Below, piece by piece: positions 53,213 through 54,582 of a stretch of 64,000 nt of DNA (positions are counted from its first letter, which is position 1; every line of letters begins with the position of its first letter). The translations under genes were made by a program, and so were the position numbers. The DNA is taken from positions 145,929 through 209,928 of the forward strand of contig JAIOOR010000013.1 in NCBI GenBank assembly GCA_021414365.1. The letters run 5' to 3'. The notes below the pieces were generated by a model. It had not been told where the DNA came from. It did no database searches and saw only the letters and a list, made by a program, of their open reading frames with translations. This DNA comes from Nitrosarchaeum sp. (GTDB lineage: Archaea > Thermoproteota > Nitrososphaeria > Nitrososphaerales > Nitrosopumilaceae).

Positions 53213-54271
53213 TTGTTGCCTTCAATCAAAGATGACACAGCCATAAAAATACTCTTTGAGGCTTCTCCAGACATGCTGGCAATTCTTGATAAGAATGGAA
53301 AAATTGTTGATTGTAATGCCCAATGTGCAAAAAATTTGGGATATGAGAAAAGTGAAATGATTGGAATGATTGGTCCTATAGATATGGTTTTAGAAAGAGA
53401 TAGACATATTGCAGTTGATGGATTTGAAAAAGTAGTAACAAATGGAATAAACCATAATGTTTCATTTGAAATGAAGCGAAAAAACAATACAACATTTTCG
53501 ACTTTATGGAGTGGTGCAGTATTACATGATGAATCAGGAAATATTGAAGGATATTTGGTGACAGGTAAGGATTTGACAGCAATAAAAAATCTAGAAAATG
53601 AATTAATTGTTTCACGTGATCGAATTAAAATTAATAGGTTTTCAATATTGGGTGAATTATCTGCAAAACTCACACATGATATAAAAAACCCCCTTTCCAG
53701 TATTTTCAACCGTGTAGATCTTATCAAAATGACTACCAAAGAGGAAAAAACATTAGAACACTGTGATAAAATAAAATACTCTCTTGATCAAATTTTACGT
53801 CAAATAAACGATGTAACCGATTTTGTAAGAATTCCACCGATAAAATTACAAAAAAATTCTCTTCAAGAACTATTAAAAAATACACTGGAATACGTTGACA
53901 TTCCAAACAAAATATCTATCGAATTACCAAAAGATGACCATGAAATCAACTGCGACGAATCTCAACTGATCATTGTTTTTACAAATTTAATTTCCAATGC
54001 AGTACAAAAGCTTGGAGATGATGGTAAAATATCAATTCAATATGATAGCACTTCAACATCACATCTTATCTCCGTAATTGATTCTGGAGAATCCATTCCA
54101 GACTATGTGATGCCTAGAATTTTTGAACCACTATTTACAACAAAACAAAAAGGCACAGGTCTAGGCCTTGCAAGCTGCAAATCCGTCATGGTAAATCATG
54201 GTGGAAGCATATCTGTCAAAAATAATCCTGTTACATTTACAATTATTTTGCCAAAAAATCAATTGGCATAA
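53213..54271 (+). CDS. PAS-domain sensor histidine kinase, predicted soluble
   Basis: PAS MLAILDKNGKIVDCNAQ; H box LTHDIKNPLSSI; G box GTGLGLASCKSVM. Confidence 0.93.
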   Translation: MLPSIKDDTAIKILFEASPDMLAILDKNGKIVDCNAQCAKNLGYEKSEMIGMIGPIDMVLERDRHIAVDGFEKVVTNGINHNVSFEMKRKNNTTFSTLWSGAVLHDESGNIEGYLVTGKDLTAIKNLENELIVSRDRIKINRFSILGELSAKLTHDIKNPLSSIFNRVDLIKMTTKEEKTLEHCDKIKYSLDQILRQINDVTDFVRIPPIKLQKNSLQELLKNTLEYVDIPNKISIELPKDDHEINCDESQLIIVFTNLISNAVQKLGDDGKISIQYDSTSTSHLISVIDSGESIPDYVMPRIFEPLFTTKQKGTGLGLASCKSVMVNHGGSISVKNNPVTFTIILPKNQLA

Positions 54272-54406: not shown

Positions 54407-54416
54407 CTTAAATATA
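54407..54416 (+). promoter_or_regulatory. TATA-like box upstream of candidate ncRNA
   Basis: CTTAAATATA about 25 nt before the first hairpin. Confidence 0.45.
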
Positions 54417-54431
54417 ATAATAACGCATAAG

Positions 54432-54560
54432 TTACATGCAAAAACATGTAATTCATAACAAATGAATTGCGCGACCCTGCGAAAAATACATGTTATCTTC
54501 GCTTAGGCGTTGCGAGTGAGGAGAATGCTTTTCACTCTATACAGGGTCGCGCCTTTTATC
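54432..54560 (+). ncRNA. Candidate structured ncRNA: 7-bp leader hairpin, then an 11-bp outer stem closing a multi-branch fold
   Basis: Hairpin TTACATG/CATGTAA (54432-54451); GCGCGACCCTG (54469-54479) pairs perfectly with CAGGGTCGCGC (54542-54552); inner hairpins CGAA/TTCG and GAGTGAGGA/TTTTCACTC. Confidence 0.7.
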
Positions 54561-54582
54561 TCTTTAATTTTTTAAAATGATT

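Follow-up and report, generated by a model that had tools for sequence, protein, structure and literature searches.

A previously uncatalogued structured RNA family of Nitrosopumilaceae with a probable leaderless nine-codon reading frame beside its fold

Ammonia-oxidising archaea of the family Nitrosopumilaceae are among the most abundant marine microbes and, to our knowledge, little is known about their regulatory RNAs. What kind of gene, then, is a strongly folding intergenic element on a contig of Nitrosarchaeum sp. (JAIOOR010000013.1), for which an earlier note, made from the sequence letters, had proposed an undescribed, free-standing noncoding RNA? Throughout, "the window" is the whole stretch of 64,000 nt that was analysed, and coordinates are those of the window unless a contig is given.

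The strong folding claimed for the element was evident in a 169-nt stretch, whose folding energy of −48.8 kcal/mol was compared with a shuffled mean of −28.6 (z −5.1), none of the 200 shuffles being as good. The proposed 11-bp outer stem is exact in the sequence; the TATA-like box lies where it had been placed, as does the T-rich 3′ side. The inner hairpin also pairs exactly (54514–54523 with 54528–54537), its length being 10 bp, one pair more than the 9 described. The features of the element are listed below (type A is one of two subtypes treated further on).

54408–54414, + strand: TATA box TTAAATA, 28 nt upstream of the start codon, with conserved spacing
54436–54465, + strand: putative leaderless nine-codon mini-ORF, MQKHVIHNK*, with start and stop conserved in 132 of 139 members
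54469–54479, + strand: 5′ strand of the outer stem P1, GCGCGACCCTG; 97–99% of cells paired, with compensatory changes
54480–54498, + strand: segment joining P1 to P2, CGAAAAATACATGTTATCT; hardly varying between type A members from four genera
54499–54510, + strand: short hairpin P2 with a CGC-TTAG-GCG core; both-sided changes in 3 of 4 pairs, 86.7% of cells paired
54514–54537, + strand: hairpin P3 with the loop AAUG; 96% of cells paired
54542–54552, + strand: 3′ strand of P1, CAGGGTCGCGC, pairing with 54469–54479 and covarying with it
54553–54573, + strand: T-rich 3′ flank, a probable terminator and transcript end; T runs of at least 4 lie within 30 nt in most members

By blastn, the element was single in its own genome and present in 17 of the 60 genomes searched, its own included. 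In an oriented alignment of the relatives, the TTAAATA box was invariant and two stems were conserved. Compensatory changes in the outer stem, which the earlier note had suggested looking for with a new covariance model of Nitrosopumilaceae relatives, were found. On the type A alignment, 95.7% of cells were paired in P1, P2 and P3, and nine pairs showed changes on both sides; pairing and covariation score lay above every shuffle, the number of pair types (one of five measures) did not, and slid versions of the structure were only 35–61% paired. Extending the alignment to 75 members of the family, 93.3% of cells pair and 28 of the 33 pairs have both-sided changes, with a covariation score of 0.348, where shuffles gave 0.171 and slid versions no more than 0.08; having been fitted to the model, this alignment is biased in favour of the structure, though by a large margin the score exceeds the controls.

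Conservation and compensatory changes thus bear out the three-way junction with its own TATA box and, together with the G-U pairs, the free-standing structured RNA of the + strand. Two smaller pairings fared otherwise. CGAA/TTCG is not conserved in relatives, the conserved second arm being P2, formed around CGC-loop-GCG (54499–54502 with 54507–54510), and the TTACATG/CATGTAA hairpin is missing from relatives; it straddles the predicted transcript start, and its sequence is that of the mini-ORF start and first codons. As for the strand, the stems contain many G-U pairs when read on +; read on the opposite strand they would turn into A-C mismatches, and this identifies + as the functional one. 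A function of the minus strand was considered, since the antisense folds too, and was rejected on the G-U pairs, the TATA box, the ORF and the T run. We regard the element as belonging, almost certainly, to a real conserved family of structured RNAs.

Several known classes of RNA were compared with it. Against Rfam 15, the window gave no family at the gathering cut-off, in agreement with the description of the RNA as new, and no meaningful match when E-values up to 10 were allowed; at ten loci carrying members of type A or type B, likewise, no family reached the gathering cut-off. The earlier exclusion of tRNA, SRP RNA and RNase P RNA also stands: ARAGORN finds no tRNA or tmRNA in the window, and the genome has its RNase P RNA (RF00373) and SRP RNA (RF01857) at other places, each scoring above its cut-off. 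An archaeal H/ACA guide RNA was rejected because the sequence after P1 is CTTTTATCTC, which is not an ACA box, and no guide RNA of Rfam matched above cut-off. No C/D boxes were seen by eye, the best sub-threshold Rfam match being a C/D family at E 1.5. In the open-access literature no description of this RNA was found; it may exist elsewhere as an unnamed RNA-seq transcript. One conserved noncoding RNA common to N. limnia and N. maritimus is noted, without being specified, in the N. limnia paper (PMC3043068); it may or may not belong to the family. The existence and anatomy of a previously uncatalogued RNA family are strongly supported, while from the sequence comparisons we infer its transcription, translation and function.

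Three covariance models defined the extent of the family: R1 for type A, R2 for type B, and the broader R3. R1 matched 113 of the 251 Nitrosopumilaceae genomes. Type B was discovered through weak full-length matches, which in two genomes lay beside a strong one. Its promoter spacing and kind of P1 are like those of type A; in addition it has an inner stem, GCAGAAC/GUUCUGC, and a P3 of the form GAGAG-GNAAU-CUCUC, the corresponding hairpin being paired in 97.8% of cells. R2 matched 229 of the 251 genomes (18 of 22 genera), often two to four times per genome, and also catches type A copies at lower scores. Among 400 genomes of the class, R2 had no match outside Nitrosopumilaceae, and R3 had none in 22 genomes of other families. 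Since the family is kept across Nitrosopumilaceae, including genomes of 1.2 Mb, its function is likely to be a general one.

Run on eight Nitrosopumilaceae genomes without an earlier match, R3 gave one weak match (G027:C52:3566-3699; 27 bits, E 0.01), in a genus with no other matches. Its P1 starts with CTG instead of GCG and the nine-codon frame is not visible; it is perhaps a very divergent member. In one draft genome (G225), two contigs both end within a type A RNA, as expected where an assembler halts at a hairpin or repeat.

Three copies were found in the genome of the window, namely the window copy and those at C2:128457 and C26:125036. The window copy lies in the interval between aroA (EPSP synthase) and aroC (chorismate synthase), two genes of the opposite strand. 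The second locus of the family adjoins the gene of a DUF1246/DUF1297 protein, which we take to be of the PurP type, and the third lies between an SDR gene and that of a small, secreted-type protein without a Pfam match, which in several genomes is followed by a TFIIB gene. The SDR locus is common to genera g1, g4, g6, g9, g12, g17 and g40 and is probably ancestral. At the level of sequence, these comparisons show the window element to be the aroA-side member of a three-locus paralogous RNA family of Nitrosopumilaceae. Neither the three loci nor the mini-ORF had been seen by the earlier note.

The mini-ORF occupies the conserved 5′ segment. In 132 of the 139 distinct members, the first model position is an ATG (124) or GTG (8) and the first in-frame stop is codon 10, with TAA, TGA and TAG all in use; the window copy reads ATG CAA AAA CAT GTA ATT CAT AAC AAA TGA. 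This codon-10 stop is present in 98% of the sequences of type A and in 96% of those of type B. In-frame stops within the segment are rare, while in the other two frames stops are common (reaching 73% at one offset). Of 27 representatives that share less than 80% identity across the ORF, 22 follow the pattern of start and stop, compared with a shuffled mean of 1.1 and a maximum of 6. The start codon follows TTAAATA by 28–29 nt in nearly all members, and upstream of ordinary genes of these genomes TTAAATA clusters 28–30 nt from the start; this equal spacing suggests that the mini-ORF is leaderless, as is usual for ORFs in these archaea, and the transcript would then start at 54436, on the same base as the ORF. 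Between the stop and P1 there are 3–4 nt in 126 of the 132 members (3 nt in the window copy). In all likelihood, the ORF is genuine.

Four members (in G194, G141, G267 and G023) have the start missing, the codon-10 stop missing, or another length; decay of the copy, an error of assembly or a real loss of the ORF could explain them. The copy at C26 starts with GTG (VLSKPTSTE*), has a shorter distance of 26 nt from TATA to start, and has neighbours other than those of the purP-side copies in other species; on these three grounds, it may have moved.

What the ORF is for is a separate matter, and the strongest rival to a role in translation is a purely noncoding trans-acting RNA, in which translation would play no part: the AUG would be no more than an initiator sequence, and the frame would simply follow from a 5′ hairpin. 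The mini-ORF segment of type B indeed covaries as a hairpin, so that part of its conservation lies at the RNA level and constraints on RNA and frame overlap, and the peptide sequence of type A is not conserved. The ATG, however, is exchanged for nothing but GTG, and the stop, kept at a fixed distance, varies solely between TAA, TAG and TGA; the frame is also kept in type A, where the corresponding 5′ hairpin is not conserved, and the RNase P and SRP RNAs of the same genome start otherwise, as judged by eye. We consider the noncoding explanation unlikely. The structured RNA that had been proposed is upheld, but the word "noncoding" is probably incomplete, the 5′ segment being a conserved leaderless ORF.

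Conversely, the nonapeptide might itself be the functional product, with the fold as a stabilising 3′ UTR. ORF length is strict in all three paralogues, and in type B the last residue stays acidic in most members, as a micropeptide gene would lead one to expect; yet conservation is stronger in the RNA fold than in the peptide, whose letters drift, and codons of type A vary mostly at their second, amino-acid-changing positions. Since the letters vary, there is no protein-level selection to point to, and a micropeptide gene is quite unlikely. What is conserved is probably an open frame of fixed length beside a fold, the peptide itself not being the product.

The RNA would thus probably have a double use, as a template for ribosomes and as a structured RNA, and the reading that we prefer is a trans-acting structured RNA gated by translation. 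According to it, the RNA would be transcribed alone from 54436, with a length of about 120–135 nt; ribosomes would load on the 5′-terminal AUG and translate the nine codons, and at termination their leading edge would lie over the 5′ strand of P1, the core fold being held open by ribosome occupancy and closing on release. The RNA would then act in trans as a structured small RNA or RNP, its activity or stability set by translation of the mini-ORF. Constrained folding of the window copy is consistent with such gating. Blocking the first 43 nt, which mimics a ribosome at the mini-ORF stop codon, abolished P1 and changed the energy from −42.1 to −24.9 kcal/mol, and P1 survived when the ORF alone was blocked; the gated RNA is favoured because a ribosome that terminates on codon 10 would sit on the 5′ strand of P1 and so do away with the stem. 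As to possible targets, sites complementary to the joining segment, the only segment searched, showed no excess over a reversed control in four genomes. For the mechanism as a whole we would give a probability of roughly 45%.

Conservation of the mini-ORF supports a place for the RNA among candidate dual-function small RNAs. In general terms, and with no sequence match, it resembles SgrS, SR1 and RNAIII, which are free-standing and combine a short ORF with a structured part; unlike in these, the archaeal ORF appears leaderless, has a fixed length of nine codons and a drifting sequence, and abuts the fold. With leader-peptide attenuators and other ribosome-gated leaders it shares the short ORF followed by a stem and a T run, the ribosome presumably controlling the fold, but at most loci there is no gene on the same strand to regulate. 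Like tmRNA, it is a structured RNA with a short reading frame, which here would begin at the 5′ end with its own AUG, and like RNase P and SRP RNAs it is a free-standing structured RNA of archaea. It is possible, with the odds against it, that the family constitutes a free-standing translation sensor, confined to Nitrosopumilaceae and present as three paralogues, with a fixed-length leaderless mini-ORF as the switch and no regulated gene downstream. We know of no archaeal example of such a ribosome-switched trans-acting device.

Most copies lie tail to tail with a gene of the opposite strand, and several overlap its stop codon by about 10 nt, an arrangement that would suit a local regulator of these neighbours by antisense or convergent transcription. 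The neighbours differ among paralogues, however (aroA, the PurP-type gene, the gene of the small secreted-type protein), and the type A copy switches neighbours between genera, adjoining other genes in g9, with the fold retained; local regulation is thus improbable. Cis-regulation of aroA or aroC was rejected on account of the other neighbours at the paralogous loci.

A cis-acting leader, riboswitch or attenuator is very improbable. Its likeness to a leader ORF followed by a stem and T run apart, a gene downstream on the same strand was found for one copy in two g17 genomes (at 67–90 nt) and for the C26 copy (at 228 nt), but the window locus and almost every other one are followed by a gene of the opposite strand, which largely refutes regulation of a neighbour and favours independent transcripts. 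A mobile or selfish repeat with a chance fold, suggested by the several related copies per genome, is scarcely credible given that copy types retain their neighbours across species and genera, carry promoter and ORF and covary extensively, and that two exact-pattern scans of viral contigs, which also speak against viral spread, gave no match.

If the mini-ORF of the preferred, translation-gated RNA is translated, it would offer a direct and testable example of how a ribosome, by leaderless initiation, controls an RNA that acts in trans. In any event, the RNA is an annotation missing from hundreds of genomes, and the covariance model is ready for Rfam.

Finally, a gene for a PAS-HisKA-HATPase histidine kinase (53213–54271, + strand) lies between the RNA and aroC in the window, an arrangement shared by G008. 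Since aroC comes directly after the RNA in several other genomes with type A, the kinase gene looks like an insertion into the aroA–aroC gap.
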